Of a DNA stretch of 39,122 nucleotides, positions 3 to 39,122 are shown piece by piece. Origin of the DNA: a virus. How positions within the stretch are numbered: the first letter of the stretch is position 1; every line of letters starts with the position of its first letter. The DNA lies in the IMG/VR virus record IMGVR_UViG_3300034062_001359, positions 1 through 39,122 of that record; one strand, given 5' to 3'. Below the pieces are notes generated by a model. That model saw only the letters and a list, made by a program, of their open reading frames with translations, ran no database searches and was not told the origin of the DNA. The translations under genes and the position numbers were made by a program.

Positions 3-1076
3 ACTGCTGCTGCTGCCTCGGCTAGTGCTGCATCTACCTCTGCAACCAACGCAGCGGCCTCGGCAAGCACAGCTACGACACAAGCAACCAACGCTGCTAC
101 ATCAGCCAGCAACGCATCTACAAGTGCCAGCAACGCTTCCACAAGTGCCACTAACGCTGCTGCTAGTGCGTCTAGCGCGTCCACCAGTGCAACTAATGCT
201 GCGACATCTGAAAGCAATGCTGCTGCAACGTATGACCTGTTTGATGATAGATACCTGGGAGCCAAAGCGGCTGACCCAACGCTAGACAATGATGGCAATG
301 CGCTTGTCACTGGTGCGATGTACTTCAACACGGTATCTAACACAACTAGGATATACAACGGGGCTAGTTGGCAAGATACTGCTGCTCTGGCTACAACGAT
401 TAACCTAGCTACTCAAGTCACAGGCACACTACCAATTGCTAACGGTGGAACAGGCACTACCTCTACAACCTTTGTTAACCTTGCCACCAACGTCACCGGC
501 ACACTACCTGTCGGCAACGGCGGCACAGGCGCAACAACGCTGACAGGAGTTCTCAAGGGCAACGGCACAGGTGCGTTTACTGCTGCGACTGCTGGAACAG
601 ACTTTGTTGCACCTGCAACGGCTACGACTTTCACAGCTACACAAACCTTCAGCGGTAGCACTAGCGCATTGGGTATTGTGTTAAACGATGCAGCAGAAGT
701 AGCTACAGTGTCTGCAACAGCGGCCACAGGTACGATTGCCTATGACATCACTACGCAGTCTGTCCTGTACTACACAAGCAACGCATCAGCAAACTGGACT
801 GTTAACTTTCGTGGTTCGTCAGGTACAAGTTTAAACACGCTGATGGCTACAGGTGAGTCAATGACTGTTGCATTCCTTGTCACTCAAGGTGCTACGGCGT
901 ATTACAACAGTGCTGTGCAGGTAGATGGTACAACCAGTGGCGTAACAACAAGATGGCTTGGTGGCGCACCTACAGCAGGCAACGCAAGCGGCATCGACAG
1001 TTATAGGTACTTAATAATTAAAACAGGCAGTGCAGCGTACACTGTGTTGGCTTCAGTCACTCAATTTAAGGCGTAA
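3..1076 (+). CDS. Tail fibre protein, 5' end missing (copy A)
   Basis: The reading frame is open from base 3, so the start lies left of the window. The first ~70 codons are an Ala/Ser/Thr/Asn repeat (units like ATNAATSASNAS), typical of the extended shaft of phage fibres. It is followed by YDLFDDRYLGAK and TGAMYFNTVSNTTRIYNG, phrases common in T7-type and other tail-fibre proteins, then two GTLP(I/V)xNGGTG repeats. The last ~145 residues match the C-terminal part of the gene at 33397-34254 almost residue for residue, while the N-terminal parts are unrelated. It probably forms part of the host-recognition apparatus at the tail tip. The stop is followed after 3 bases by the next adhesion gene, so the two are probably co-translated. 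Confidence 0.75.
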   Translation, partial: TAAAASASAASTSATNAAASASTATTQATNAATSASNASTSASNASTSATNAAASASSASTSATNAATSESNAAATYDLFDDRYLGAKAADPTLDNDGNALVTGAMYFNTVSNTTRIYNGASWQDTAALATTINLATQVTGTLPIANGGTGTTSTTFVNLATNVTGTLPVGNGGTGATTLTGVLKGNGTGAFTAATAGTDFVAPATATTFTATQTFSGSTSALGIVLNDAAEVATVSATAATGTIAYDITTQSVLYYTSNASANWTVNFRGSSGTSLNTLMATGESMTVAFLVTQGATAYYNSAVQVDGTTSGVTTRWLGGAPTAGNASGIDSYRYLIIKTGSAAYTVLASVTQFKA

Positions 1077-1079
1077 CCT

Positions 1080-3077
1080 ATGCCATTACAATCAACATCA
1101 GGTGCTGCGAGTTACGATGCCTTTGGTGGCGGTGCTGCTGCTGTACCGAATTACATAGAAGAAGTTTTCAGTACGCACCTCTACACAGGCAATGTCACCC
1201 CTTTAAACATTACCAATGGTATTGATTTGGCGGGTAAGGGTGGGCTGATTTGGACAAGAGAAAGAAACAATGCTGCAAATCATCTTTTAATAGATTCTCA
1301 AAGAGGTTTGGCTAATGGTTTTTTAGAATCAAACACAACAGACGCTGCTGACACAAGCAGGGTGTCTGAGTCTATAAGTTCTTTTAATACCGATGGATAT
1401 ACGCTTCACGCCCCAGATACTCTGTGGGATAGAGCTTCATATAACTACGTCTCATGGACATTCCGCAAGCAGCCGAAGTTTTTTGATATTGTGACGTATA
1501 CGGGGACAGGCAGCAACCGTACCATTGCACACAGCTTAAACAGCGTTCCAGGCTGTATTATTGTTAAAAGAACAGACACGACAGCAAATTGGGCTGTCTA
1601 CCACCGTGGTCTTGCCAATACAGAGTATCTTGTTCTAAATAGCGATGCTGGGGCGGCTACAGGCGCAACGTGGTGGAACTCTACAACTCCAACATCCGCA
1701 GTTTTTAGCGTAGGCACTGACGCAAGTGTTAATGCTTCAGGCGGTACATACGTAGCCTACATATTCGCCCACGATGCAGGCGGCTTCGGTCTGGCTGGTA
1801 CGGACAATGTGATTTCGTGTGGGACTTATACAACTGACGGTAGTGGTAACGCAACGGTAACTTTGGGGTATGAGCCACAATTCCTTTTAAGGAAACGCAA
1901 TGTGGCTGGGTCAACGCCATGGTTCATTGCTGATGCTGCCCGTGGATGGACAACATCTGGTGTCGCAGGGACGCAAATACTTCAGCCCAACGACTCATCA
2001 GCGGAGTCTGTCGGAAATAATATTGCCTGTTCACCCTCTGCTACAGGGATGACAATTGCAAACGATGGCGCATCACGCACCTACATCTACATAGCCATAC
2101 GCCGTGGCCCAATGAAAGTGCCAACGAGTGGGACGAGTGTTTTTGCTCCTGTTTTTAGGAAAGGAACAAGCACTGTTGTTCAAGTACCTAGTGGATTTGT
2201 AACTGATTTAGGAATAACGCAGTCAACACAAAATGGCTTTAGCACAGGCGGGGCTGTGTTTTATGACAGATTGCGGGGGCGCACATTGTTTTTAAGTCCA
2301 AGTGGCAACTCCGCTGAGGATACATACACTACGCTAGTAGAGGGCTTTGATACACAAAGTGGCGTAATCATGGCTGCTGATACATCTAGGGCATGGACAA
2401 ATTTTCTTGGCTCGCCTCCAAACGATAATTATGAGTTCTATGCCAACTGGTTCTTCAAACGCGCCCCAGGCTTCTTTGATGAGGTTTGTTATACGGGGAC
2501 GGGGAGTGCAAGGACTGTGGCACATAACTTGGCGGCAGTGCCTGAGATGATGATTGTGAAGCGCAGAGACAGTATAGGTGTGTGGCGTGTATACCATCAA
2601 AGTCTTGGAGCAACAAAAAACATTCGGCTAAATGATACAGCAACACCAGAAACAGACTCAGTTATATGGAACGACACAGCCCCAACTTCTTCGGTGTTTA
2701 CAGTAGGAACAAACGCTAATGTCAACGCATCCAGCGGCACTTACGTTGCCTACCTATTCGCTACACTCGCTGGAGTCTCCAAAGTCGGCAGCTACACAGG
2801 CACAGGCACAACGCTACAGATCAACTGTGGCTTCACTGGTGGTGCGAGGTTCGTGATGATAAAGCGCACTGACTCTACAGGTAACTGGTTCGTCTGGGAC
2901 ACAGCTAGAGGCATCATAGCGGGTAATGACCCTTACCTAGTGCTTAACACCACAGACGCTCAAGTCACCAACACAGACTACGTTGACACCTACAGCGCAG
3001 GGTTTGAGATCAGTAGCACAGCCCCTGCGGCAATTAATGCTAACGGCGGCACTTACATCTTCTTGGCTATCGCGTAA
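1080..3077 (+). CDS. DUF7483-like virion adhesion/structural protein (copy A)
   Basis: A 665-residue protein built from repeated beta-rich modules. A recurring signature is FFDxVxYTGTGS, then IAHxL, xxVPGCIIVKRTD, and later an AYIFAHDAGGFG or AYLFATLAGVSK segment. Copies of this unit start near residues 134, 460 and 575. The repeats resemble the DUF7483 family found in phage tail or decoration proteins (family recalled, not searched). The N-terminal 20 residues, SWTFRKQPKFFD and the last ~100 residues are nearly identical to the paralogue at 34258-36261, but the segments between are strongly diverged, as expected of a receptor- or glycan-binding surface under diversifying selection. It sits between the fibre and fibre-assembly genes with spacers of only 3 and 10 bases. 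Confidence 0.75.
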   Translation: MPLQSTSGAASYDAFGGGAAAVPNYIEEVFSTHLYTGNVTPLNITNGIDLAGKGGLIWTRERNNAANHLLIDSQRGLANGFLESNTTDAADTSRVSESISSFNTDGYTLHAPDTLWDRASYNYVSWTFRKQPKFFDIVTYTGTGSNRTIAHSLNSVPGCIIVKRTDTTANWAVYHRGLANTEYLVLNSDAGAATGATWWNSTTPTSAVFSVGTDASVNASGGTYVAYIFAHDAGGFGLAGTDNVISCGTYTTDGSGNATVTLGYEPQFLLRKRNVAGSTPWFIADAARGWTTSGVAGTQILQPNDSSAESVGNNIACSPSATGMTIANDGASRTYIYIAIRRGPMKVPTSGTSVFAPVFRKGTSTVVQVPSGFVTDLGITQSTQNGFSTGGAVFYDRLRGRTLFLSPSGNSAEDTYTTLVEGFDTQSGVIMAADTSRAWTNFLGSPPNDNYEFYANWFFKRAPGFFDEVCYTGTGSARTVAHNLAAVPEMMIVKRRDSIGVWRVYHQSLGATKNIRLNDTATPETDSVIWNDTAPTSSVFTVGTNANVNASSGTYVAYLFATLAGVSKVGSYTGTGTTLQINCGFTGGARFVMIKRTDSTGNWFVWDTARGIIAGNDPYLVLNTTDAQVTNTDYVDTYSAGFEISSTAPAAINANGGTYIFLAIA

Positions 3078-3087
3078 GGAATAAATC

Positions 3088-3576
3088 ATGCAAATCAGAG
3101 TTAAAGCTACAGGCGCGGTGATGTACGAAAGTGAGTTTCGCGCATACATTAAAAACACAAGCGGTGCATCGTGGAATGAAACAACTGACGAGATACTACA
3201 GTCTCTGGGTGCTGATGTAGTCTTTGAAGGCGCACAAGCCACTGGCGGCACAGTGTATCAATACAGCCAGCGTGACGGTGTTGAGGAAGTTGATGGTAAG
3301 TGGTATACAAAGTATATCCTTGCACCAGTGTTTACTGACAACGAAGATGCTACAGCCGCAGAGCAAGAGGCTGCTTACAAAGCCATGAAGGATGCAGAGC
3401 AGGCAACGTCTGTACGCACAAGCCGTGGTGACAAGTTAAAGGATAGCGACTGGACACAGGTAGAGGATGCACCTGTAGACAAAGCAGCGTGGGCTACCTA
3501 CCGTCAAGAGTTAAGAGATATCAGCGCACAGGAAGGCTTCCCTTGGGCTGTAGTGTGGCCTACGCAACCAGAGTGA
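3088..3576 (+). CDS. Tail fibre assembly-like protein (Phage_tail_APC type, copy A)
   Basis: 162 residues. The C-terminal ~60 residues follow the pattern R..RxxKLxDSDWTQ, DAPVDKAAWATYRQELRDI, then FPW and WPTQP, which is the hallmark of phage tail assembly chaperones encoded next to tail fibres. The N-terminal ~90 residues (starting MQIRVKATGAVMYE) form a small adaptor region typical of aquatic phages. The likely role is to help fold or attach the neighbouring fibre or adhesin. A GGAATAA sequence precedes the ATG. It is nearly identical to 36272-36760, differing mostly at third codon positions. Confidence 0.75.
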   Translation: MQIRVKATGAVMYESEFRAYIKNTSGASWNETTDEILQSLGADVVFEGAQATGGTVYQYSQRDGVEEVDGKWYTKYILAPVFTDNEDATAAEQEAAYKAMKDAEQATSVRTSRGDKLKDSDWTQVEDAPVDKAAWATYRQELRDISAQEGFPWAVVWPTQPE

Positions 3577-3584
3577 GGTAGATC

Positions 3585-3827
3585 ATGCCCGAATCAAGCC
3601 TAATTGACATGTTGATAGCCGGAGCCGGTGCTGTTGTAGCCTGGTTCGTCAAATCTACCCGTGAAGATAACAAGGAACAGGATCGCAAGATCGAAACCTT
3701 GCAGCGTGAACAAGCTGCTCTGTTAAGCCGCGAGGAGTTCAGGCAAGACATGCAAACCTTCAGGCAAGAGATGAATCAGAACTTTGACAAAGTTTTCAGC
3801 AAGCTGGACAAGAAGGCAGATAAGTAA
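3585..3827 (+). CDS. Small membrane-anchored coiled-coil protein (copy A)
   Basis: 80 residues: a hydrophobic N-terminal segment (residues ~5-23), then a highly charged, probably coiled-coil stretch rich in Lys, Glu, Gln and Arg up to the C-terminus. A strong GAGGTAGATC precedes the ATG. It lies in the lysis cassette, so it may be a holin accessory or a haemolysin XhlA-like protein, although XhlA usually has the reverse domain order. The stop overlaps the next start by one base (TAATG), implying translational coupling. Conserved in copy B (36769-37011). Function not established. Confidence 0.6.
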   Translation: MPESSLIDMLIAGAGAVVAWFVKSTREDNKEQDRKIETLQREQAALLSREEFRQDMQTFRQEMNQNFDKVFSKLDKKADK

Positions 3828-4303
3828 TGCTTGATCCGGTCTCAGCCTTAGCCATAGCTACGTCTGCGTTTAATCTGCTAAAAAAGGGAATATCCGCAGG
3901 TCGAGAATTGGAAGACATGGCAGGCCAGCTTGGCACATGGTTTGGCGCAGTCAGTGACGTAAAATCCGCTGAAGAGGAAGCCAAAGACCCACCACTGTTT
4001 AAAAAGCTTTTAAGTAAAAACTCAGTCGAGCAAGAGGCAATGCAAGCACTCTTGGCTCGCAAGAAGATTGAGCAGCAAGAACGTGAACTGCGTGAGCTTA
4101 TTGTGTACAAGTGGGGAACTGACGCTTACGTTGATATGCTTAGAGATCGGGCAAGGATCAAAGACACTCGCGCAAAGGCTATTCAAAATCAACGGCGCAA
4201 GATGCGTAAGTTCATTGCAAACGTATTAACAATCGGTGCAATTCTTGCGCTGGTCGGCATCATAGTCGCATTTATTATTGGCATAATTTCAAACATAGGG
4301 TAA
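3827..4303 (+). CDS. Membrane-anchored helical protein of the lysis cassette (copy A)
   Basis: 158 residues. An N-terminal helix (ALAIATSAFNLLKK) is followed by a charged helical region with the phrase KIEQQERELRELIVYKWG. A basic segment (QRRKMRKF) leads into one clear transmembrane helix at residues ~128-155, near the C-terminus. It starts inside the stop of the upstream gene and ends 5 bases before the holin candidate. It is conserved in copy B at 37011-37487. I do not recognise a named family. Its place among TM genes and lysozyme suggests a lysis or virion-membrane role, but this is inference from context. Confidence 0.6.
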   Translation: MLDPVSALAIATSAFNLLKKGISAGRELEDMAGQLGTWFGAVSDVKSAEEEAKDPPLFKKLLSKNSVEQEAMQALLARKKIEQQERELRELIVYKWGTDAYVDMLRDRARIKDTRAKAIQNQRRKMRKFIANVLTIGAILALVGIIVAFIIGIISNIG

Positions 4304-4308
4304 TCATC

Positions 4309-4809
4309 ATGTTGAGTTTAGTATCAAGTCTGCTCGGTTTTGCTGCTGGCGGTGTGCCAAAAATTCTAGACAACGTGTTTACGATGGTTCAAGACAGAGG
4401 CGATAAAAAGCACGAATTGGCAATGATGGCCGCTAACCGTGAGCGCGAACTGGCACTTGCTAAGGAGGGCTTTGTTGCCCAAGCTCGCGTAGAAGAGATC
4501 AAAAGTGACCAGATCGCTATGCAGACACAGACCCAAGAAAGGCTTGGGATGTACAAGCACGATATGAAAATCGGGGAAGGGGCTAGTACCTGGGTAATCA
4601 ACCTTCGATCCTCGGTACGGCCAGTTGTGACCTATATCTTCGTAGCCTTGCTGGTGGTCGTTGACATAGCAGGCATCTGGTACGCTTACTCAACAGGTGT
4701 TGCGTTTGCTGAAGCGATGGAGATGGTGTTCAGTGACGATGAGATGGCTATGCTAGCCGCAATACTGAGCTTCTGGTTCGGCAGTCAAGCGTTTAATTCC
4801 AAGCGGTAA
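4309..4809 (+). CDS. Putative holin, GTA-type 3-TM (copy A)
   Basis: 166 residues with three hydrophobic segments: an amphipathic or hydrophobic N-terminus (MLSLVSSLLGFAAGGV), a long middle charged helix (QDRGDKKHELAMMAANRERE), then two close TM helices near residues 107-128 and 145-162, ending FWFGSQAFNSKR. This resembles the gene-transfer-agent holin family (3 TMs), and it is placed directly upstream of the lysozyme with a 2-base gap. It would form the membrane lesion that releases the lysozyme. The copy B version (37748-38233) lacks five residues near position 22. The family assignment is moderately sure. Confidence 0.6.
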   Translation: MLSLVSSLLGFAAGGVPKILDNVFTMVQDRGDKKHELAMMAANRERELALAKEGFVAQARVEEIKSDQIAMQTQTQERLGMYKHDMKIGEGASTWVINLRSSVRPVVTYIFVALLVVVDIAGIWYAYSTGVAFAEAMEMVFSDDEMAMLAAILSFWFGSQAFNSKR

Positions 4810-4811
4810 CT

Positions 4812-5297
4812 ATGACTATTTCAGAAGCGGGTATTCAGTTGATTAAGAGCTTTGAGGGCTGTCACAATCAGCCCTACAAGTGTCCTGCTACGCTTTGGAC
4901 GATAGGCTATGGCAGAGTACTCTATCCAGATCAGGCAAGGCTCAAAACAGACGAGAGAGCCAGCTATCCACTACGCAGCGAACATAATAGGCTTTGGAAT
5001 GCTGACGAAATTGATGCGTTACTTGAAGCGGATTTACAACGCTTTTCGGATGGGGTACTACGACTATGTCCTGCTGCTGCTGATAATCAGTGCCACCTTG
5101 ACGCAATTACGAGCCTTGCTTTCAATATTGGACTAGGGAATTTAGCGTCATCCACCCTACGCATGAAGTATAACCGTTCTGACTATGATGGCGCAGCAGA
5201 TGAGTTCCTCAAGTGGCGCAAAACAAACGGCGTGGTACTGCGAGGACTAGAAAGGCGCAGAGAAGCGGAGAGGGCGTTATTCCTCTCCGGCGGCTAG
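4812..5297 (+). CDS. Endolysin, GH24 lysozyme (copy A)
   Basis: 161 residues, the usual size for a phage muramidase of glycoside hydrolase family 24, which cuts MurNAc-GlcNAc bonds of peptidoglycan. The catalytic triad follows the family spacing exactly: Glu15 (KSFEG), 8 residues, Cys24, 5 residues, Thr30, followed by IGYG. Cys replaces the Asp of T4 lysozyme, a variant common in phage enzymes. No signal peptide or SAR anchor is visible, so export should depend on the holin. The 3' end overlaps a convergent minus-strand gene by 21 bases. Copy B is at 38230-38715. Confidence 0.92.
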   Translation: MTISEAGIQLIKSFEGCHNQPYKCPATLWTIGYGRVLYPDQARLKTDERASYPLRSEHNRLWNADEIDALLEADLQRFSDGVLRLCPAAADNQCHLDAITSLAFNIGLGNLASSTLRMKYNRSDYDGAADEFLKWRKTNGVVLRGLERRREAERALFLSGG

Positions 5298-5447
5298 TCT
5301 ATCAAGTATCTCCTGCACTTCTTGCTGGGCTTTATCGTGACGCTCCTGCAACGATAACTGTAAGTCGCTACATAGTGCCATGATTGACCCAGAATCGTGT
5401 GGAGCGCAGCACAGGACGCTTCCAGATGGGTAGGTGACGAACTTCAT
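5277..5447 (-). CDS. Conserved 56-residue protein (copy A)
   Basis: A short gene starting ATG at 5447 with N-terminus MKFVTYPSGSVLCCAPHDSG and C-terminus ILDRLAAGEE. The start overlaps the stop of the upstream gene (ATGA), and the 3' end overlaps the lysozyme gene tail-to-tail by 21 bases. An equivalent 56-codon frame exists in copy B (38695-38865, GTG start). Most differences between the two are synonymous or conservative, so it is a real protein gene. Two Cys (13, 14) are followed by a helical C-terminus. Function unknown. Confidence 0.7.
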   Translation of the reverse strand: MKFVTYPSGSVLCCAPHDSGSIMALCSDLQLSLQERHDKAQQEVQEILDRLAAGEE

Positions 5448-5644
5448 CGCGGCCTCGGACGTTTCTTGTGAAAAGCAATGTTGTCATCATTGTAAAAACC
5501 GGCAGGCCATTGGTTTGTGCCATCTACTGCTACTGATTCACCAGGCTGACGCACATCAATCTTGCCGCCACCTGACAGATACAATTTAATATCAAGTTCT
5601 AATCGTTCGCGGTCTAGTTTATTTTCCTTCTGATATTTCATCAC
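5444..5644 (-). CDS. Small conserved hypothetical protein (copy A)
   Basis: 66 residues. It starts at adjacent GTG/ATG codons; copy B has ATG ATG at the same place, which supports the N-terminus M-M-K/R-Y-Q. A charged N-terminal helix is followed by a compact C-terminal part with GESVAVDGTNQWPAGFYNDD and a basic tail. The stop overlaps the next gene (ATGA), and the start lies inside the upstream gene by 26 bases. The conserved Gly-Thr-Asn-x-Trp-Pro-Ala-Gly-Phe-Tyr core may be a small fold; no family recognised. Confidence 0.65.
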   Translation of the reverse strand: MMKYQKENKLDRERLELDIKLYLSGGGKIDVRQPGESVAVDGTNQWPAGFYNDDNIAFHKKRPRPR

Positions 5645-5819
5645 TAGCTCTATGCTCCTCGTAAAGTGTCATTGCCTCGACATGAGTTTCTGGCTTTGGG
5701 CAGTTACCTTTCGGCATAACGATGTAGTGCATCTTTATCTGCTCATAACCCAACGGGCAGAACATGGCTGGTTTGCTACTCGGAAACCGATATACGGCAC
5801 AAGTCAGGCAGGTGTTCAT
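5619..5819 (-). CDS. Small Cys-containing hypothetical protein (copy A)
   Basis: 66 residues. Cys4, Cys7 and Cys21 (MNTCLTCAVYR, then FCPLGYEQ) plus Cys40 could bind a metal, but this is not certain. The C-terminal half (PKPETHVEAMTLYEEHRASD) is matched by the partial gene at 39040-39122. It overlaps both neighbours, as expected in this compressed operon. Function unknown. Confidence 0.6.
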   Translation of the reverse strand: MNTCLTCAVYRFPSSKPAMFCPLGYEQIKMHYIVMPKGNCPKPETHVEAMTLYEEHRASDEISEGK

Positions 5820-10697: not shown

Positions 10698-10886
10698 ATG
10701 ACGCAAACACAACAAATACTTAGGCATTTTGAAAAGGGTAACAAGCTAACGCCGATGGAAGCACTTAACTTGTTTGGATGCTTTAGACTTGCGGCACGGG
10801 TGCGGGAGTTGCGTGATGTAGGCCATGAGGTCAAGTCTCAACTGATCAGGATCAACGGCAAACGCATTGCAGAGTACTGGCTATGA
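10698..10886 (+). CDS. Small HTH_39-type DNA-binding protein
   Basis: 62 residues from the ATG at 10698, with AAGGGGAAACATA upstream. The sequence TQQILRHFEKGNKLTPMEAL then LFGCFRLAARVRELRDVGHE is the classic small winged-helix/HTH_39 protein of phage early regions, usually near NinB-type genes. It presumably binds DNA as a regulator; the target is unknown. The stop overlaps the next start (ATGA). Confidence 0.75.
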   Translation: MTQTQQILRHFEKGNKLTPMEALNLFGCFRLAARVRELRDVGHEVKSQLIRINGKRIAEYWL

Positions 10887-11302
10887 GTGAGCAGTGGGTA
10901 GTCAACTCTGACAGTAAACTCGGTGGGTTTCTGGCTCACGCTGCCGAGCTTTATCGGAAGCACAAATACGTGACTTTCAAGTGGTCAACTGGGCAGCAAA
11001 GAAGCGAAACACAAAACGATGCAATGCACCTATGGTTTGAGCGCGTAGCCAAAACACTTAATGATGCAGGCTTGGAAATGGTTGTCAGTTTACCAACAGG
11101 AAAAGAGTGGACCATCCCCTGGTCCAAACACACGGTTAAGGAAAACATCTGGAAGCCAGTTCAGGAGGCAATAACAGGCAAGCAATCGACTACCGAAGCC
11201 AAGCGCATCGAGTACAGCCAAGTCTACGAAGTTATCCACAGCCGGTTTGCAGGTCATCATGGGATCACGCTACCTTTGTGGCCGAGCAAGGATAAGGAAT
11301 AA
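10883..11302 (+). CDS. NinB-like recombination protein
   Basis: 139 residues. Key features of the NinB-like phage family are YVTFKWSTGQQRSETQNDAM (the R-S-x-x-Q-N signature), IPWSKHTVKENIWKPVQEA and a KQSTTEAKRI motif, with C-terminal FAGHHGITLPLWP. NinB (Orf) proteins of lambda help load recombinases on ssDNA covered by SSB. It is coupled to the upstream gene by ATGA and to the overlapping ORF at 11302 by TAATG. Only distantly like lambda NinB, so the exact role is uncertain. Confidence 0.6.
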   Translation: MSEQWVVNSDSKLGGFLAHAAELYRKHKYVTFKWSTGQQRSETQNDAMHLWFERVAKTLNDAGLEMVVSLPTGKEWTIPWSKHTVKENIWKPVQEAITGKQSTTEAKRIEYSQVYEVIHSRFAGHHGITLPLWPSKDKE

Positions 11303-12030
11303 TGGGATGGATAATCAGCCAGGCACTATACGAGAAATGGCATTGTTCGCAGGAGCTGGAGGAGGAATTCTCGCAGGACATTTGCTTGGATGGAAAACAG
11401 TCTGCGCCGTTGAGTGGGAACCCTACCCAGCTTGCGTACTTGTCGCCAGACAAAATGACAAAATTCTCCCGCCTTTCCCGATTTGGGATGACGTTAAAAC
11501 CTTTGACGGCAGACCGTGGCGAGGACTTGTTGATGTGGTATCTGGAGGCTTTCCTTGCCAAGACATATCCAGTGCTGGACGAGGCGCAGGAATTGACGGA
11601 GAGCGATCTGGCATGTGGCGTGAAATGGCACGAATTGTCGGTGAAGTACGACCTAGGCTCGTGTTCGTGGAGAACTCACCAATGCTTGTGGGACGAGGAG
11701 CTGCACTGGTCATCAGTGACCTTGCCAAGATGGGGTATGACTGTCAGTGGTGTATTGTTTCAGCATCCGACTTCGGAGCGCCCCATCAACGGGACAGGTT
11801 CTGGCTTCTGGCCGACACCAACAGCACACAATGCAAAGGAAACCAATGCGCCCAGCGAAGCGAACAGAAACGAGCCAACACTAGCCAGTCGAGTTGGTGG
11901 GCATCTGAACCCGATGTGGGTAGAGTGGCTGATGGGGTGGCCGCTAGGGTGGACAGACTTAAAGCCATTGGCAATGGACAGGTTCCAGTGTGCGCGGCTA
12001 CCGCATTCAATATCCTTAGAGGAAAAATAG
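11302..12030 (+). CDS. Overprinted phage protein in a second frame of the methyltransferase gene
   Basis: 242 codons without a stop, one frame away from the methyltransferase and overlapping it for 724 bases. The ATG is coupled to the NinB-like stop (TAATG), and the stop codon abuts the NinG start exactly. The translation is not random-looking: FGMTLKPLTADRGEDLL, SCSWRTHQCLW, LPRWGMTVSG, GSGFWPTPTA, then LNPMWVEWLMGWPLGWTDL and KPLAMDRFQ. I recall this set of Trp-rich phrases from stand-alone proteins of many environmental phages. Their function is unknown. It may be a genuine dual-coding gene or a fossil shadow of methyltransferase codons. The AAGGA is only 3 bases from this ATG, so its translation would rely on coupling. 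Confidence 0.5.
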   Translation: MGWIISQALYEKWHCSQELEEEFSQDICLDGKQSAPLSGNPTQLAYLSPDKMTKFSRLSRFGMTLKPLTADRGEDLLMWYLEAFLAKTYPVLDEAQELTESDLACGVKWHELSVKYDLGSCSWRTHQCLWDEELHWSSVTLPRWGMTVSGVLFQHPTSERPINGTGSGFWPTPTAHNAKETNAPSEANRNEPTLASRVGGHLNPMWVEWLMGWPLGWTDLKPLAMDRFQCARLPHSISLEEK

Positions 12031-12038
12031 ATGCGTAG
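11307..12038 (+). CDS. DNA cytosine-5 methyltransferase
   Basis: 243 residues from the ATG at 11307, which lies 8 bases after AAGGA. All core motifs are present: motif I ALFAGAGGG (12-20), motif IV GFPCQDIS with catalytic Cys84, motif VI ENSP (122-125), motif VIII QRDRFW (161-166) and motif X IGNGQVP (221-227). It transfers a methyl group from SAM to C5 of cytosine. The target-recognition region between motifs VIII and X is only ~45 residues, far shorter than in Dcm-type enzymes, which suggests a short recognition site. No restriction enzyme is nearby, so it is a solitary phage methylase. The TET/JBP-like gene downstream suggests its product is a substrate for oxidation. Confidence 0.92.
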   Translation: MDNQPGTIREMALFAGAGGGILAGHLLGWKTVCAVEWEPYPACVLVARQNDKILPPFPIWDDVKTFDGRPWRGLVDVVSGGFPCQDISSAGRGAGIDGERSGMWREMARIVGEVRPRLVFVENSPMLVGRGAALVISDLAKMGYDCQWCIVSASDFGAPHQRDRFWLLADTNSTQCKGNQCAQRSEQKRANTSQSSWWASEPDVGRVADGVAARVDRLKAIGNGQVPVCAATAFNILRGKIDA

Positions 12039-12588
12039 ATGCAAGCAGTGTAGATCAGAGATAGCACCTGCTGCAAAGTGTAACGACTTTATCGGTAAAA
12101 AAGGTTTCTGCGGTATCGACTGCGCCAGTGCCTGGGGAGCGTCGGTCGCTATTACCAAGCGGGAAAAAGCCTACAGGCTCGAAACACAGGCGAAGCGGGA
12201 ACGGCTGAAGACCCGATCAGATCACGCACGGGAAGCACAGGAAGCGGTAAACGCATACGTCAGGCTCAGAGACGCTCTCAAGCCGTGTATAAGCTGCCAG
12301 CGTTATCACACAGGCCAGTACCATGCGGGACACTATAGAACGGTTAAGGCGGCTCCCCAGCACCGATTCAACGTCCTACAAATTAGAAAACAATGCTCGG
12401 TCTGTAACTCGCATCTTTCTGGGAATATAACCGAATACCGAATAAACCTTGTGCGACTAATTGGTGCTGAACGGGTAGAAAGAATAGAGTATGACAATAA
12501 TCCTCGCCGATACGAGGTTGACTACCTTAAAAGGTTACGGTCGGTATTTAAAAAACGAGTTAAACACCTACTAAGGCTAAGAACATGA
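12031..12588 (+). CDS. ninG: NinG/Rap-like recombination endonuclease
   Basis: 185 residues. N-terminal zinc-like Cys pairs (RCKQC, then CGIDCASAWG), a charged helical middle, and the NinG core: CISCQRYHTGQYHAGHYRTV followed by FNVLQIRKQCSVCNSHLSGN. NinG (Rap) of lambda resolves Holliday junctions and D-loops in RecA- or Red-type recombination. The size is close to lambda NinG. The start follows the overprinted ORF stop with no gap and overlaps the methyltransferase end by 8 bases. Confidence 0.92.
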   Translation: MRRCKQCRSEIAPAAKCNDFIGKKGFCGIDCASAWGASVAITKREKAYRLETQAKRERLKTRSDHAREAQEAVNAYVRLRDALKPCISCQRYHTGQYHAGHYRTVKAAPQHRFNVLQIRKQCSVCNSHLSGNITEYRINLVRLIGAERVERIEYDNNPRRYEVDYLKRLRSVFKKRVKHLLRLRT

Positions 12589-14825: not shown

Positions 14826-15434
14826 ATGCAAAAATTTCCGACCTATAAAACCGCCAGCGTTGAATCGCTGATTCCATACGCACGTAATTCCCGAACACAC
14901 TCCGAGGCGCAGGTCACTAAGATAGCGGCCTCGATCAGGGAGTTTGGATTCCTGAACCCAGTCATCGTTGATAAGGATAACGGCATTGTGGCAGGCCACG
15001 GGCGGGTTATGGCTGCGAAAAAACTTGGCATGGTAGAACTACCAGTAATTCAGGCTGATCACCTAACTGATGCTCAAAGACGAGCATACGTTATTGCCGA
15101 TAACCGTCTTGCGCTTGATGCTGGGTGGGACTACGAAATGTTGAAGGTTGAATTTGATGAGTTGTCTAGTATCGGCTTTGATATAAACCTAACCGGCTTT
15201 GAAGATTCAGAGATTGCAGCCTTTAACCCGGACTATTCGTTTTTGGACGAGGCTGGCGATCTTGATAACGAACTAGATCAAATGGCCTCGGAAGTGAAAA
15301 AGGCAATACAAATAGAATTTGAGCCTGACCACTACCAAAGGGCAATGGACGTTATATCGCACTGGCGCGGACAAGGCGCATACGTTGGCTACATGATATT
15401 GACCTATCTGGAGAGCGAAAAAGGCGACTCGTGA
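14826..15434 (+). CDS. ParB-like nuclease/DNA-binding domain protein
   Basis: 202 residues from the ATG at 14826. It follows GGGGTAAG and overlaps the stop of a possible 20-codon leader ORF (14764-14826). The ParB/sulfiredoxin N-domain spans residues ~8-100: VESLIPYARNSRTHSEAQV, IREFGFLNPVIVD, the catalytic-type GIVAGHGRVMAA, then AYVIADNRLAL. In phages such domains often sit next to DNA modification enzymes. Here it is coupled (GTGA) to the glycosyltransferase and followed by the TET-like dioxygenase, so it may target or support base modification. The C-terminal ~80 residues are acidic and unrecognised. Confidence 0.82.
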   Translation: MQKFPTYKTASVESLIPYARNSRTHSEAQVTKIAASIREFGFLNPVIVDKDNGIVAGHGRVMAAKKLGMVELPVIQADHLTDAQRRAYVIADNRLALDAGWDYEMLKVEFDELSSIGFDINLTGFEDSEIAAFNPDYSFLDEAGDLDNELDQMASEVKKAIQIEFEPDHYQRAMDVISHWRGQGAYVGYMILTYLESEKGDS

Positions 15435-16261
15435 AAGTATTCACATTTTTCTACAACAGATACGACACCGCAACAACGTCTCGCGCTTTGCATGAAAGCG
15501 GAATATCCCATTATGTAATGATTCACAATCAGCAGGACTGCGACAAGTTTGTGGCCGGTAACACGCTGCACGGCCAGCCAGTTATAACAAACAACCCGAA
15601 AGGGCTGGCACACCAAAGGAACAGCGCACTTGCTATGATGCAGCCGGGCGAGTGGGCTGCGTTCCTTTGCGACGACTTTGAAAAAATTATGAGCTTCCCG
15701 CCAGCGTGGATAACCGGCAAAACAAGCCGCATAAACATAACGGCAGAGAATCAAAACAGGTTCCGGCTTTCCAACCACATCCAGATGACGCTGGCGCAAA
15801 TGTTTGATCTGTTCCCATATCTCACGAGCATTGCGGAAAAAAGCGGCATTCACCTGATCGGTTTCGGGCTGCATGACAACCCGCGCAATCTGGCGCGGAA
15901 GTTTACGACAAAAGGACTGGCCGATGGGCGGTTCTGGCTGGTACGCAAATCCACTTACGAGTTTGACGTAAACGCACAGCTAATAGACGACGTGGCATGG
16001 ACGGCCGAAAACATAGTGCGGCACAAAAAAGTTATGGTATTGAATTGGCTTGTCCCGTATTTTAAACGGTATACCGCTGGCGGCTTTGGCTCAACCACGG
16101 AGCGTAAGGAAAGGCGGCGAAAGGAATGCTCGTATCTAGTTGCCAAGTATGCACCGCTGATTCGTTTTGCAGCAAAGCCTGGCTGGGACTCTGGTACGCA
16201 CATCAAAATCAACGCATCCGACAAGAACATCGAAATCATGAGAAAGAGGTTCGGAATATAA
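15431..16261 (+). CDS. Putative DNA-base glycosyltransferase (TAGT-like, GT-A fold)
   Basis: 276 residues from a GTG that overlaps the ParB stop (GTGA). It begins with a beta strand VFTFFYNRYDTATTS typical of GT-A enzymes. HQRNSALAMM (61-70) and FLCDDFEKIM (78-87) follow, the latter a DxD-like metal site. DDVAWTAENI (186-195) may hold the catalytic acid, and a basic C-terminal region follows (RKERRRKECSYL). This layout fits the TET/JBP-associated glycosyltransferases described from phage base-modification operons. It would add sugar to oxidised 5-methylcytosine in phage DNA. The stop overlaps the TET-like gene (TAATG). The glycosyltransferase class is likely; DNA as acceptor is inferred from the neighbours. 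Confidence 0.65.
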   Translation: MKVFTFFYNRYDTATTSRALHESGISHYVMIHNQQDCDKFVAGNTLHGQPVITNNPKGLAHQRNSALAMMQPGEWAAFLCDDFEKIMSFPPAWITGKTSRINITAENQNRFRLSNHIQMTLAQMFDLFPYLTSIAEKSGIHLIGFGLHDNPRNLARKFTTKGLADGRFWLVRKSTYEFDVNAQLIDDVAWTAENIVRHKKVMVLNWLVPYFKRYTAGGFGSTTERKERRRKECSYLVAKYAPLIRFAAKPGWDSGTHIKINASDKNIEIMRKRFGI

Positions 16262-33397: not shown

Positions 33398-34254
33398 TGA
33401 CTACGATAACGCAAACGATACCGAGTTTAGGCTCACCACCTCTAACAACCGATCCGGTCAACTTTGATACACGCGCAGACACTTTATACGGTACATCACT
33501 GCCTGCGGTGATCACTGCAACCAATACTTGGTCAGGCCAAGCAAACACGGTTGCTGGTGAGGTCAACACTAACGCAACTAACGCGCAGACTTCCGCAAAC
33601 ACTGCATCTGGCGCATCTGCTGCGGCTGTTGCTGCGGTTAATGCAACGCAGTGGAACAGCGGTCAATCATACCTTACGGGCGCAGTTGTTTGGTCGCCGA
33701 TAAATTATCTGTCGTATCGCGCAACCACAAACACCAGCGGAACAACTGATCCAAGCCTTTCTGCTGATTGGACATCTCTTAATCTTTCACTTTCTGCTGC
33801 TAATACATGGACTGGAAAACAAACCTTTAGTGGCACAACCAGCACACTTGCCGTTGTGTTAAACGATGCAGCAGAAGTGGCTACAGTGTCTGCAACAGCA
33901 GCTACGGGTACGATTGCCTATGACGTTACTACGCAGTCTGTCCTGTACTACACAAGCAACGCATCAGCAAACTGGACTGTTAACTTCAGGGCATCAAGCG
34001 GTACAAGTTTGGACACGGCTCTGGCAACAGGTCAGTCAGTAACAGCAGCCTTCCTCGTCACTCAAGGTGCTACGGCTTATTACAACAGTGCTGTGCAGGT
34101 AGATGGCACAACCAGTGGCGTAACAACAAGATGGCTTGGTGGCGCACCTACAGCAGGCAACGCAAGCGGCATTGACAGCTATAGGTACTTAATAATTAAA
34201 ACAGGCAGTGCAGCGTACACTGTGTTGGCTTCAGTCACTCAATTTAAGGCGTAA
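33397..34254 (+). CDS. Tail fibre protein (copy B, complete)
   Basis: 285 residues, TGATG-coupled to the baseplate gene. N-terminal ~60 residues (TLYGTSLPAVITATNTWSGQ, NTNATNAQTSANTASGASAA) are an attachment and helical shaft. Then QSYLTGAVVWSPINYLSYRA, a chitin-binding-like module. From residue ~142 (QTFSGTTSTLAVVLNDAAEV) to the end it matches the C-terminal part of copy A almost exactly. This is the full-length version and shows how the missing start of copy A probably connects to the baseplate gene. Confidence 0.8.
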   Translation: MTTITQTIPSLGSPPLTTDPVNFDTRADTLYGTSLPAVITATNTWSGQANTVAGEVNTNATNAQTSANTASGASAAAVAAVNATQWNSGQSYLTGAVVWSPINYLSYRATTNTSGTTDPSLSADWTSLNLSLSAANTWTGKQTFSGTTSTLAVVLNDAAEVATVSATAATGTIAYDVTTQSVLYYTSNASANWTVNFRASSGTSLDTALATGQSVTAAFLVTQGATAYYNSAVQVDGTTSGVTTRWLGGAPTAGNASGIDSYRYLIIKTGSAAYTVLASVTQFKA

Positions 34255-34257
34255 CCT

Positions 34258-36261
34258 ATGCCATTACAATCAACATCAGGTGCTGCGAGTTACGATGCCT
34301 TTGGTGGCGGTGCTGCTGCCGAGCCAAACTATATAGAGTCATGTTTTAGTACATACCTCTACACAGGTGTAGGTTCAGCAATAACCATTACTAATGGCAT
34401 TGACTTAGCGGGTGACGGTGGACTGGTCTGGCTAAAGAATAGAGGGACTGTTAGTAATAATTCATTACACGATACTACAAGAACCCCATCCTACCAGCTC
34501 GTATCAAACTCTACAGCCGCACAAGATACAGTGAACGGCGATTTAAGCTCCTTTAATAGCAATGGGTTTTCACTAGGAACTTCAGGCGGGGGCAATAACA
34601 TAACAGGCAACATTGCCTCATGGACATTCCGCAAGCAGCCGAAGTTCTTTGATGTTGTAACGTATACGGGGACTGGAAGTAATCAAAGTATTGCTCATAA
34701 TCTTGGTTCTGCACCGGGCTGTATTATTGTTAAAACATTGGGTTCTGGCTACGATTGGAATACATGGCATCGTTCAGGTACACAACTAAATTCCTATTCA
34801 CTCGCATTAAACTCTACACGTGCCTACCAGAATACTGGCGATGACCTTTGGGGGACAGTTGGCGGCGTTCCTAATATGAACTCGGCAACATTTAGTGTCG
34901 GCTCTTATGGTGCTGTTAATGCTTCTGGTCAAACATACGTTGCCTACCTATTCGCCCACGATGCAGGCGGCTTTGGTCTGACGGGTACGGACAATGTTAT
35001 AAGCTGTGGGTCGTTTACGACTGATGGTAGTGGTGTGCCCCCTAACGTAAACCTTGGGTATGAGCCTCAATGGATTATGTGTAAAGGGTCTAGTGCTGGT
35101 GCGGCTGGTTTTGGATGGACAATTCAAGACAATATGCGGGGCAGTACCGCTAACGGTGCGGTGCAGTATTTGAGAGCTAATTCATCTGGGGCAGAAAATG
35201 CAGATACAGGACAACTTGCAATTAACTCAACTGGATTTGGCGGCGGGTCTGGGTTTGGCGCAAGCAACACATTCATCTACATAGCCATACGCCGTGGCCC
35301 AATGGAAGTGCCAACGAGTGGGGCGGAGGTGTTTAGTCCTGTTGGTTTTAACTCATCAGCAAGTAACCAAACGATTAATACAAATATTGTCACAGATTTG
35401 TGCTTATATAATTTTAGAAACATAACAAACGGGTTTATGTGGTTTGATCGTCTGCGTGGAATTACAGGAACTACAGGCAGCGGTAATAAAATGCTATTGT
35501 CCCCGTCAGCAGCCGCAGAAGCAAACGACACCTCTATAAATGGAGCAGGCCAAACTACTCTTGTTGCTGGTGGAACTTTAGGCGGCTATACGCAAATTCT
35601 TGAATGTTTCAGACGCGCCCCAGGCTTCTTTGATGTGGTTTGTTATACAGGGAATGGGACAGGCAGTACACAAATCACACACAACTTAGGTGTTGCTCCA
35701 ACATTGGTGATTGTGAAACAACGCTCAGGGTCGCCAGACCGTTCTTGGTGGGTTCTTACAACTGCTGTTCCGCAATTAAACATTCTCAATGACACATCTG
35801 CGGCAAATGCCTACGGAGTTCCAGCAAACTTGTTTGGTGATTCAACGTACAACAATTACATAGCACCTACCGCAACAACGCTTACGCTTTCGCCAAGTAG
35901 TGAAGTTAATAATTCCGGCTCAACCTATGTTGCCTACCTATTCGCCACACTCGCTGGAGTCTCCAAAGTAGGCAGCTACACAGGCAACGGAAGCAGTCAA
36001 ACTATTAACTGCGGCTTCACTGGTGGTGCGAGGTTCGTCCTCATAAAGCGCACGAACAGCACAGGTGATTGGTACGTCTGGGACAGCGCAAGGGGTATCG
36101 TAGCGGGTAATGATCCACACCTCAGCCTCAATACTACAGCCGCTGAAGTTACCACAGATGACAGCGTAGACACTGACAGCACAGGCTTTGTAGTCAACCA
36201 AGTGGCCGCAACAAACGTGAACGTAAACACTGCCACTTACATCTTTTTGGCTATTGCGTAA
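34258..36261 (+). CDS. DUF7483-like virion adhesion/structural protein (copy B)
   Basis: 667 residues with the same architecture as copy A. Identical start MPLQSTSGAASYDAFGGGAA, then SWTFRKQPKFFDVVTYTGTG, FAHDAGGFGLTGTDNVISCG, RAPGFFDVVCYTGNG and AYLFATLAGVSKVGSYTGNG. The stretches between these anchors (residues ~25-120, 150-230, 270-340, 360-460 and 500-560) differ strongly from copy A in sequence and length. This mosaic of fixed framework and variable inserts is what is expected for a host-range determinant. Confidence 0.75.
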   Translation: MPLQSTSGAASYDAFGGGAAAEPNYIESCFSTYLYTGVGSAITITNGIDLAGDGGLVWLKNRGTVSNNSLHDTTRTPSYQLVSNSTAAQDTVNGDLSSFNSNGFSLGTSGGGNNITGNIASWTFRKQPKFFDVVTYTGTGSNQSIAHNLGSAPGCIIVKTLGSGYDWNTWHRSGTQLNSYSLALNSTRAYQNTGDDLWGTVGGVPNMNSATFSVGSYGAVNASGQTYVAYLFAHDAGGFGLTGTDNVISCGSFTTDGSGVPPNVNLGYEPQWIMCKGSSAGAAGFGWTIQDNMRGSTANGAVQYLRANSSGAENADTGQLAINSTGFGGGSGFGASNTFIYIAIRRGPMEVPTSGAEVFSPVGFNSSASNQTINTNIVTDLCLYNFRNITNGFMWFDRLRGITGTTGSGNKMLLSPSAAAEANDTSINGAGQTTLVAGGTLGGYTQILECFRRAPGFFDVVCYTGNGTGSTQITHNLGVAPTLVIVKQRSGSPDRSWWVLTTAVPQLNILNDTSAANAYGVPANLFGDSTYNNYIAPTATTLTLSPSSEVNNSGSTYVAYLFATLAGVSKVGSYTGNGSSQTINCGFTGGARFVLIKRTNSTGDWYVWDSARGIVAGNDPHLSLNTTAAEVTTDDSVDTDSTGFVVNQVAATNVNVNTATYIFLAIA

Positions 36262-36271
36262 GGAATAAATC

Positions 36272-36760
36272 ATGCAAATCAGAGTTAAAGCTACAGGCGC
36301 AGTAATGTACGAAGCAGAGTTCCGCGCATACATTAAAAGCACAAGCGGTGCATCGTGGGATCGCACAACTGACGAGATACTTGAGGAGCTGGGTGCTGAT
36401 GTAGTCTTTGAAGGCGCACAAGCCATTGGCGGCACAGTGTATCAATACAGTCAGCGTGACGGTGTAGAGGAAGTTGGTGGTAAGTGGTATACAAAGTATG
36501 TTCTTGCACCAGTGTTTACTGACAACGAAGATGCTACAGCGGCAGAGCAAGAGGCTACCTACAAAGCCATGAAGGATGCAGAGCAGGCAACGTCTGTACG
36601 CGCCTCACGCAGCGACAAGCTCAAGGATAGCGACTGGACACAGGTAGCTGATGCACCAGTAGACAAAGCAGCCTGGGCTACCTACCGTCAAGAGTTAAGA
36701 GACATCAGCGCACAGACGGGCTTCCCGTGGACAATAGAGTGGCCTACGCAACCAGAGTGA
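36272..36760 (+). CDS. Tail fibre assembly-like protein (copy B)
   Basis: 162 residues, same length and start as copy A, with the C-terminal KLKDSDWTQVADAPVDKAAW and AWATYRQELRDI signature of tail assembly chaperones. Substitutions cluster at residues ~15-42 and the extreme C-terminus. An identical GGAATAAATC leader precedes the ATG. Confidence 0.75.
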   Translation: MQIRVKATGAVMYEAEFRAYIKSTSGASWDRTTDEILEELGADVVFEGAQAIGGTVYQYSQRDGVEEVGGKWYTKYVLAPVFTDNEDATAAEQEATYKAMKDAEQATSVRASRSDKLKDSDWTQVADAPVDKAAWATYRQELRDISAQTGFPWTIEWPTQPE

Positions 36761-36768
36761 GGTAGATC

Positions 36769-37011
36769 ATGCCCGAATCAAGCATTATTGACGCAATGAT
36801 CGCAGCAGCAGGAGCCATAGTTGCGTGGTTCGTAAAGTCCACGCGCGAGGACAACAAGGAGCAGGATCGCAAGATCGAAACCTTGCAGCGTGAACAGGCT
36901 GGCCTCTTAAGTCGCGAAGAGTTCCGTCAGGACATGCACCTACTGCGGCAAGAAATGAACGCAAACTTTGACAAAGTGTTTTCTAAATTGGACAAGAAGG
37001 CAGATAAGTAA
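36769..37011 (+). CDS. Small membrane-anchored coiled-coil protein (copy B)
   Basis: 80 residues: TM-like N-terminus SIIDAMIAAAGAIVAWFVKS, then a charged coil identical to copy A over TREDNKEQDRKIETLQREQA. Differences at the DNA level are mostly silent, which shows selection for the protein. TAATG-coupled to the next gene. Function unknown; lysis-cassette context. Confidence 0.6.
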   Translation: MPESSIIDAMIAAAGAIVAWFVKSTREDNKEQDRKIETLQREQAGLLSREEFRQDMHLLRQEMNANFDKVFSKLDKKADK

Positions 37012-37487
37012 TGCTTGATCCAGTCTCAGCGTTAGCCATAGCCACCAGTGCCTACAAAGTCATCAAGCGTGGCATTGAAATGGGGCGTGAGCTTGAAGAC
37101 ATGGGCGGCCAGCTCGGCACGTGGTTTAAGGCTGTGTCCGATGTTAAGAACGCTGAAGAAGAGGCCAAAGACCCGCCGCTTTTTAAGAAGCTTATGTTCT
37201 CCGGCAGTGTCGAGCAAGAGGCGATGCAGGCACTTGTAGCCAGAAAGAAGATCGAGCAGCAAGAGAAAGAACTGCGGGAACTGATAGTCTACAAATGGGG
37301 CGTTGAGGAGTACACGGCAATGATGCGTGACCGCGCTAAGATTAAAGACACGCGGGAAAGAGCGATGCTCAACCAGCGGCGCAAGATAAGAAAGTTTATC
37401 GCAAACACGCTGACTATTATAGTGATTGCAGCACTCACTGGGCTTCTCGTTATGTTTCTTGTTGGTATTATTACAAATCTGAGGTAG
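37011..37487 (+). CDS. Membrane-anchored helical protein of the lysis cassette (copy B)
   Basis: 158 residues as in copy A, with MLDPVSALAIATSAYKVIKR, KKIEQQEKELRELIVYKWG and a C-terminal TM helix (TLTIIVIAALTGLLVMFLVG). Here it is followed after 3 bases by an additional membrane gene that copy A lacks. Confidence 0.6.
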   Translation: MLDPVSALAIATSAYKVIKRGIEMGRELEDMGGQLGTWFKAVSDVKNAEEEAKDPPLFKKLMFSGSVEQEAMQALVARKKIEQQEKELRELIVYKWGVEEYTAMMRDRAKIKDTRERAMLNQRRKIRKFIANTLTIIVIAALTGLLVMFLVGIITNLR

Positions 37488-37490
37488 CAA

Positions 37491-37754
37491 ATGAACGAGA
37501 GCGACATCAAGGGCAAGTTAACTTTTGCGGTAACCCTGATGGTCTCCGCCACGTTGTGCGTCTCTGTCATAGTCATGGTCATTGCGCTAGTGGCCGGTCT
37601 CTGGTTTGACAACATCGACAATGCCGAGATATTCAAACTGATCTCTCCTGCTTTTCAAACAATTATCGGGGGCTTTATTGGCCTGCTTGCCGGAATAAAA
37701 CTCGGTAACGCTGACGATTCCCAGCCCCCCTGCCGAGGTAACAAATCATGTTAA
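37491..37754 (+). CDS. Two-TM membrane protein, holin candidate, only in copy B
   Basis: 87 residues with two TM helices: TLMVSATLCVSVIVMVIALV (~15-38) and PAFQTIIGGFIGLLAGIK (~53-70), and a polar C-terminus. NIDNAEIFKLISPAFQTIIG is a phrase I recall from small membrane proteins of aquatic phages. It overlaps the 3-TM holin candidate start by 7 bases. Copy A has only 5 bases at this place. It may be a second holin or antiholin. Confidence 0.65.
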   Translation: MNESDIKGKLTFAVTLMVSATLCVSVIVMVIALVAGLWFDNIDNAEIFKLISPAFQTIIGGFIGLLAGIKLGNADDSQPPCRGNKSC

Positions 37755-38233
37755 GTTTAATATCAAGTTTGATGGGTTTTGCTGCCGGTGGTTTGCCGAA
37801 GGTACTGGATTTCGTCCAAGATCGTGGCGACAAGAAGCACGAACTGGCGATGATGGCCGCTAACCGTGAGCGCGAGATCGCCCTGGCGAAAGAAGGCTTT
37901 ATTGCTCAAGCCCGTGTTGAGGAGATCAAAACAGAACAGATTGAGATGCAGACGCAAGCGCAGGAAAAACTTGCGATGTGGAAACACGATATGAAAATCG
38001 GAGAAGGGGCTAGTACTTGGGTAATCAACCTTAGAAGTAGCGTGCGACCAGTTGTGACCTATATCTTCGTGCTTCTGCTGGTGGTCGTTGACATAGCAGG
38101 CATTTGGTACGCGTACAGCACAGGCGTGGCGTTTGCACAAGCGATGGAAATGGTCTTCTCTGATGACGAGATGGCGATCCTTGCTGCAATCATCAGCTTC
38201 TGGTTCGGGTCGCAGGCATTCAACAAGAAATGA
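37748..38233 (+). CDS. Putative holin, GTA-type 3-TM (copy B)
   Basis: 161 residues. Compared with copy A it lacks five residues between GGLPKVLD and FVQDRGDKKHELAMM, so the first hydrophobic segment is shorter. The two C-terminal TM helices (VVTYIFVLLLVVVDIAGIWY; ILAAIISFWFGSQAF) are conserved. The stop overlaps the lysozyme start (ATGA), whereas copy A has a 2-base gap. Confidence 0.6.
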   Translation: MLSLISSLMGFAAGGLPKVLDFVQDRGDKKHELAMMAANREREIALAKEGFIAQARVEEIKTEQIEMQTQAQEKLAMWKHDMKIGEGASTWVINLRSSVRPVVTYIFVLLLVVVDIAGIWYAYSTGVAFAQAMEMVFSDDEMAILAAIISFWFGSQAFNKK

Positions 38234-38715
38234 CAATATCCGAAGCTGGCATCCAGTTGATCAAAAGCTTTGAGGGCTGTCACAACCAGCCCTACAAGTG
38301 TCCTGCGTCACTTTGGACGATTGGTTTTGGAAGAGTGCTGTACCCTGACCAAGCGCGGCTCAAAACAGACCAGAGAACTAGCTATCCACTACGCAGCGAA
38401 CATAATAGGCTTTGGAATGCTGACGAAATTGATGCGTTACTTGAGGCAGATTTGGATCTTTTTTCGGCTGGCGTACGAAGATTATGTCCTGCTGCTGCTG
38501 ATAATATGTGCCACCTGGATGCAATGGTCTCGTTTGCTTTCAACGTGGGGCTAGGCAATTTGCAATCTAGTACGCTGCGGATGAAGTACAACAGGGCAGA
38601 CTATCAGGGCGCAGCAGATGAGTTTCTTAAGTGGAACAAGGCTGGCGGCAAAGTACTTAATGGGCTGGTCAGGCGCAGAGAAGCGGAGAGGGCGTTATTC
38701 CTCTCCGGCGGCTAG
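38230..38715 (+). CDS. Endolysin, GH24 lysozyme (copy B)
   Basis: 161 residues with the same triad as copy A: Glu15 (SFEG), Cys24 and Thr30, then IGFG instead of IGYG. The variable surface is the C-terminal half. DNA identity to copy A is patchy, with a 65-base identical block in the middle of the gene. Overlaps the convergent minus-strand gene by 21 bases. Confidence 0.92.
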   Translation: MTISEAGIQLIKSFEGCHNQPYKCPASLWTIGFGRVLYPDQARLKTDQRTSYPLRSEHNRLWNADEIDALLEADLDLFSAGVRRLCPAAADNMCHLDAMVSFAFNVGLGNLQSSTLRMKYNRADYQGAADEFLKWNKAGGKVLNGLVRRREAERALFLSGG

Positions 38716-38865
38716 CCTATCAAGTATCTCCTGCACCTCGTTCTGGGCTTTATCGTGACGCTCCTGCAACGATAGGTGCATGTTGCTACATAGTGCCATG
38801 ATTAATCCAGAATCGTGTGGAGCGTGGCACAGGACGCTTCCAGAGGGGTAGGTAACAAACTTCAC
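38695..38865 (-). CDS. Conserved 56-residue protein (copy B)
   Basis: Starts GTG at 38865, overlapping the stop of the upstream gene (GTGA) where copy A has ATGA. Encodes KFVTYPSGSVLCHAPHDSG and ends VQEILDRLAAGEE. Differences from copy A are mainly silent or mild, with no indel, confirming a translated gene. Function unknown. Confidence 0.7.
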   Translation of the reverse strand: MKFVTYPSGSVLCHAPHDSGLIMALCSNMHLSLQERHDKAQNEVQEILDRLAAGEE

Positions 38866-39065: not shown

Positions 39066-39122
39066 TAGCTTTATGCTCCTCGTAAAGTGCCATAGCTTGG
39101 GCATGTGTATCAGGCTTTGGGC
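39040..39122 (-). CDS. Small hypothetical protein, 5' end cut by the window (copy B)
   Basis: Only the last 26 codons are present, reading PKPDTHAQAMALYEEHKAND and ending at TAA 39040-39042. It matches the C-terminus of the 66-residue protein at 5619-5819. Confidence 0.6.
   Translation of the reverse strand, partial: PKPDTHAQAMALYEEHKANDAISERE

Follow-up and report, generated by a model that had tools for sequence, protein, structure and literature searches.

M.EcoHK31I was reportedly described as a two-polypeptide C5-methyltransferase by Lee, Kam and Shaw in 1995. The gene for its beta polypeptide lies in another frame, overlapping the alpha gene. In this enzyme (recognition sequence YGGCCR), the larger alpha chain contains motifs I–VIII and X together with the predicted target-recognition domain, and motif IX is found in beta (PMC3404938). 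M.AquI (CYCGRG) is a split C5-methyltransferase in which beta carries motifs IX and X (PMC3404938). A second protein may also be concealed in a phage methylase gene by insertion, as in the ShiLan element, an out-of-frame HNH endonuclease that is mobile and has a patchy distribution (PMC11855218). The locus analyzed here comes from a 39 kb virus record (39,122 nucleotides in full, hereafter referred to as the window). On the basis of sequence comparisons, we consider it quite probable that two genes nested here in different frames specify the chains of a two-polypeptide C5-cytosine DNA methyltransferase.

All the features considered are on the plus strand. The proposed alpha polypeptide, M, is a C5-cytosine methyltransferase gene of 243 codons (11307..12038), and the nested second-frame gene, F2 (11302..12030, 242 codons), the proposed beta polypeptide, is in the +1 frame relative to M. 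Each F2 codon consists of positions 2 and 3 of an M codon and position 1 of the next; a substitution that is silent in M will therefore almost always alter F2. The ATG of F2 lies in a TAATG overlap with the stop codon of a NinB-like gene (10883..11302; phrog_7283, E 4e-6), and its TAG is located directly 5' of the ATG of NinG at 12031 (12031..12588; PF05766, E 3.5e-47). Two putative Shine-Dalgarno-like AAGGA sequences, the function of which is inferred, are found 9 nt upstream of the F2 ATG (11288..11292) and 8 nt upstream of the M ATG (11294..11298). The arrangement given in the preliminary description was thus reproduced: the two frames are open together for 724 bases, their starts are 5 bases apart, F2 begins and ends at its neighbors as reported, and the quoted F2 phrases overlie the methylase segments as claimed. 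No cognate restriction endonuclease gene adjoins the pair, the immediate neighbors being the NinB-like gene and NinG (the rest of the window is partly annotated). Elsewhere in the window, 15431–16261 gave a weak match (E 1e-4) to phrog_842, a beta-glucosyl-HMC-alpha-glucosyltransferase, in a phage that also has a cytosine methylase. The same module (a tail-fibre-like gene, small genes and an endolysin) is present at 676–5701 and 33854–39122, with 80–89% DNA identity, and corresponds either to a real duplication or to a chimera, assembled from two related phages, that extends past one genome length.

M matched the Pfam profile PF00145 (E 1.5e-31; M11–189 on profile positions 4–181 of 324), phrog_363 (E 1e-64) and M.HhaI (E 1e-14). 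Motifs I–VIII (M8–167, 11328..11807, with FPCQ at M82–85) were recognized with PF00145, and the FPCQ, EN and R.R residues were invariant. Motif X (GNxxxP; AIGNGQVP at M216–231, 11952..11999) was identified by hhalign comparison of the M C-terminus with the motif X part of one-chain methylases (P 94%, E 2e-8). M had been credited with every C5-methylase motif, but this assignment does not hold: the PF00145 match stops at M189, so that M does not contain the recognition region and motif IX in one chain, and the motif IX stretch sits in F2. The M-type C-terminal stretch (EPDVGRVADGVAARVDRL) is a frequent ending of annotated methylases, and some methylases with such a C-terminus may function without F2.

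F2 matched phrog_1008, labeled 'DNA methyltransferase' (E 4e-21), and its C-terminus also matched short unnamed PHROGs. There was no match to Pfam and nothing significant among PDB sequences (best E 0.21 for the profile), and AlphaFold predicted no confident fold for F2 alone (pLDDT 52, pTM 0.20). A hidden HNH endonuclease of the ShiLan type was rejected, as F2 has no HNH or other homing nuclease domain and no Pfam match. The most informative similarities were those to one-chain phage methylases. The F2 C-terminal profile aligned with the C-termini of these enzymes (hhalign P 97%, E 2e-10; reversed control P 0.1%), and the F2 profile matched them in the methylase's own frame (best E 5.5e-8 to 2e-7). 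In the one-chain actinophage methylases, "PTP" modules followed by EWMMGWPAGW are in frame just 5' of motif X; in Mycobacterium phage Aggie and its relatives, a single chain contains the catalytic domain and ends with ...RLAAAFPEWMMGWPAGWVT...RNDALRIIGNGVCPQQA. Actinophages also have other arrangements. In Arthrobacter phage Chubster, Mycobacterium phage Krili and Gordonia phage Upyo, the F2 frame is a downstream ORF, partly overlapping or adjacent, in which motif X is combined with PTP modules and EWMMG; natural split versions (L375, L380 and L381) have PTP, EWMMG and motif X in the F2 frame. F2 itself contains, at the place of the target-recognition region, a 'WPTPTAHNAKETNAPSEANRNEPTLASRVGG' module (F2 170–200, 11809..11901) resembling the LPTPVARDFKGTGPADMNRNSPCMSAIAD of one-chain methylases, followed by 'NPMWVEWLMGWPLGWTDL' (F2 203–220, 11908..11961), the proposed C5-methylase motif IX, within the hhalign match to one-chain C-termini.

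The corresponding segment of Gordonia phage Rabbitrun gp78 aligned collinearly with M.HhaI 273–306 (KLHPRECARVMGYPDSYKV...QFGNSV), at a HMMER score below significance. The AlphaFold model of a one-chain relative (L411) was confident over the C-terminal 85 residues, its nearest PDB fold was that of M.HhaI (E 3e-13), and the PTP region was predicted to be disordered. The designation of the F2 PTP stretch as a target-recognition domain is therefore a matter of position, since this region is disordered even in L411. As judged by homology to the in-frame VIII–X region of one-chain phage C5-methylases, the C-terminal part of F2 is the methylase segment that holds the recognition position and motif IX, moved to the +1 frame. 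In two loci (L018 3001–3978 and L140 2001–2951) 'PTP' modules recur in the F2 frame and enlarge the VIII–IX variable region; the exchange of such modules could alter specificity.

Candidate stretches were numerous, with at least 597 in IMG/VR and 216 in bacterial genome contigs. The preliminary description mentioned stand-alone relatives of F2, but none was found: when loci were sought with the F2 profile and with a DNA motif for its C-terminus, F2-like sequence lay over a methylase frame or in a frame-switch locus in all 200 F2-bearing loci tested. A consensus-like query matched 317 phage records, and the methylase frame was overlapping or fused in all 12 loci examined from this and an earlier search. 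The stand-alone proteins of the preliminary description are probably cases in which gene callers picked the F2 frame over M. The inspected records were mostly annotated with one frame only, F2 alone in Pseudomonas phage phPA-G and M alone in Salmonella phage S9-5 and Escherichia coli PT62. Indels or recombination allow the F2 start to run into the methylase C-terminal sequence in L225 (2880–3978) and L016 (2998–4161). Among E. coli copies, both frames are intact in the PT62 prophage (L415, NZ_CP090448.1), whereas in strain PCP07014 (L416 2503–3264) a stop interrupts the methylase, which is annotated as a pseudogene, and the F2 frame has a stop at the same place, so both products have been lost together. 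A close relative of the Kluyvera copy was present in only 4 of 5,426 complete E. coli genomes. The PT62 prophage also contains a second, different annotated DNA cytosine methyltransferase gene, which precedes the nested pair by about 2 kb (L415 1–530; E. coli PT62 1251531–1252517).

Both frames were found to be under selection. Fourfold-site identity in M was 0.60, versus 0.33 in flanking genes, at 60–65% protein identity, and 0.77 versus 0.36 at 80–85% identity. As simple counts over non-independent pairs, rather than a full OLGenie analysis, NN/NS for F2 was 0.52–0.62 and SN/SS 0.31–0.40, versus 0.80–0.84 and 0.75–0.87, respectively, for the phantom +1 frames of neighboring control genes. 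The synonymous-variation check proposed at the outset thus supported constraint on the second frame, the synonymous sites of M being strongly conserved and the phantom-frame controls showing no such effect. In sliding windows, constraint passed along the gene from M (motifs I–VIII) to F2 (about F2 170–217) and back to M (motif X). The M frame is dominant over M8–167, within which F2 is constrained in two blocks (about M40–63 and M120–151), and again over M216–231 (SN/NS 2.7). F2 is dominant over M168–215 (11808..11951; F2 NN/NS 0.18–0.50, M NN/SN 0.9–1.4, SN/NS 0.16–0.43), and from about M176 to M215 M is neutral (NN/SN 1.1–1.4) and F2 constrained. The suggestion that each frame dominates in a different part was borne out in the variable region that separates motif VIII from motif X, where M is neutral (NN/SN 1.1) and F2 is under purifying selection.

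These data bear on the possibility that F2 is a real but independent protein, anti-restriction or regulatory for example, born on top of the methylase and acting outside the enzyme. Such a protein could account for the conserved start of F2 and for the two constrained blocks over catalytic motifs, and also for the state of one locus (L134) in which F2 is intact and the C-terminus of M is broken, although the state of L134 is also in line with the two-polypeptide reading. However, the best-constrained part of F2 is homologous to the segment 5' of motif X in one-chain methylases, M is neutral exactly where F2 is best constrained, and no F2 was found away from a methylase gene in the 200 loci. 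We therefore consider an independent F2 unlikely.

The F2 start is strictly maintained. The F2 ATG was present in 171 of 171 loci, because the M codon read at this position is always AAT for the Asn of 'NEL' (169/169, never AAC) or CAT for His (2/2). The start codon of M itself varies (ATG, GTG or TTG), and Shine-Dalgarno cores, where found, were mostly 3–5 nt 5' of the M start, corresponding to 7–9 nt 5' of the F2 ATG. This conserved ATG with well-spaced cores argues against a composite protein generated by two programmed frameshifts on one mRNA, from M to F2 before the variable region and back to M before motif X, in which case the composite would be the working methylase and free F2 a by-product or regulator. 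The selected order on the DNA is exactly M, F2, M, which would yield a normal succession of motifs I–VIII, recognition region, IX and X, and one-chain relatives with the same order exist. Nevertheless, F2 contains no stops and shows partial constraint even before the first switch point, where the composite product would have no need of it, and we regard this explanation, including the role that it assigns to free F2, as very improbable.

The openness of F2 was assessed by synonymous resampling of M with the codon usage of the window. F2 contains no internal stop, versus a mean of 8.7 expected (a mean that counts the terminal stop of F2 itself; P for none, 5e-5), and stops in the +1 frames of 17 other genes of the window were near the expected rate. 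In 74 related loci, observed over expected stops in the F2 frame were 0/117 (M10–110), 0/142 (M111–167) and 2/139 (M168–228). The F2 frame was stop-free in all of a further count of 80 loci, retrieved with a methylase query, which avoids selecting loci by F2, and the third frame of these loci contained 1,189 stops. Nearly all of the 88 loci found with F2 were also stop-free except near the ends of F2, with 7–28 stops in the third frame. The F2 frame over the methylase is no chance open frame; both frames are coding and selected, and the dual coding first proposed for this locus is real. A functionless shadow frame, kept open by methylase codon bias and conservation, was the least credible explanation and is ruled out statistically: some frame-shifted similarity is expected wherever a methylase protein is conserved, but not zero or near-zero stops versus 117–142 expected per segment, fourfold-site conservation absent from neighboring control genes, M neutrality where F2 is constrained, and a start at which AAT is never replaced with AAC.

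The preliminary description also proposed that the F2 family was born by overprinting of a methylase. This origin is tenable for about 110 N-terminal residues of F2 and does not extend to the C-terminal part, which has its homology in one-chain methylases. Over motifs I–VI of the one-chain actinophage loci, 3–8 stops were counted in the F2 frame, versus 2–6 expected per locus (the counts include one at the start codon), and the frame was mostly open downstream of these motifs. As the second frame of these loci retains some constraint past about M112, their use as a clean negative control is confined to the upstream part. The N-terminal ~110 residues of F2 probably arose as a lineage-specific extension that covers the catalytic motifs, because the actinophage second frame is broken there at a neutral rate of stops. 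At the position of F2, one such one-chain locus (L379 1935–2450) and its relatives (L382–L394) retain a shorter open frame (SETWPTSGMTRNG...PTP), which shows some sign of being constrained and may encode a short protein.

In the two-polypeptide enzyme that we favor, M (alpha) would provide AdoMet binding, catalysis and DNA binding through motifs I–VIII, together with motif X. F2 (beta), starting almost where M does in the +1 frame, would provide the variable 'PTP' stretch at the target-recognition position and then motif IX (NPxWVEWLMGWPxGWTDL), its N-terminal ~110 residues having been added later, as the nested frame grew upstream across the catalytic motifs. Together, M and F2 would form a single enzyme that methylates phage or host DNA at a specific sequence, most likely protecting phage DNA from restriction or adjusting expression, a role proposed because no restriction enzyme was seen adjoining the pair. 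From these comparisons we infer that F2 is translated from its own start and assembles with M, that both chains are needed and that F2 sets the specificity, and we propose the biological role given above.

Hundreds of phage and prophage methylase loci appear to conceal a second, selected gene. The nested pair is real, widespread and hidden by annotation, its two products presumably acting as subunits, and many phage methylases, a large and commonly misannotated group, probably consist of two parts. If the two-subunit reading is true, many methylases annotated as 'one-chain' would, if cloned by themselves, lack activity or be mis-specified, and specificity could shift as the F2 frame evolves. 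The locus is also an unusually clear natural case in which constraint changes hands between two frames along a single gene, and the one-chain relatives reveal where the nested part came from.

Among known systems, the closest in layout is M.EcoHK31I. As in that enzyme, motifs I–VIII and X are in the larger chain and motif IX is in a second polypeptide. Unlike M.EcoHK31I, the constrained variable VIII–IX stretch is in the second frame rather than in the larger chain, F2 spans essentially the entire methylase gene, and the pair is numerous in phages, with no adjacent restriction gene. M.AquI is another C5 enzyme that naturally consists of two chains, with the break around the variable region, but motif X stays in M here, and nesting in another frame is absent from the description of M.AquI in PMC3404938. 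The one-chain actinophage methylases (for example, Mycobacterium phage Aggie gp53 and Gordonia phage Rabbitrun gp78) share a homologous catalytic domain and a homologous EWMMGxPxGW segment 5' of motif X, and the Aggie type also has in-frame PTP modules; they differ in that these parts are in frame with the catalytic domain and stops interrupt their second frame over motifs I–VI. With the ShiLan element, too, a phage methylase gene conceals a second protein in a different frame, whereas F2 overlies the methylase's own conserved sequence. In the Rz/Rz1 pair of lambda (mentioned in PMC9409062), one phage gene likewise lies entirely within another, out of frame with it, and the two products cooperate, although Rz and Rz1 are membrane spanins and different proteins.
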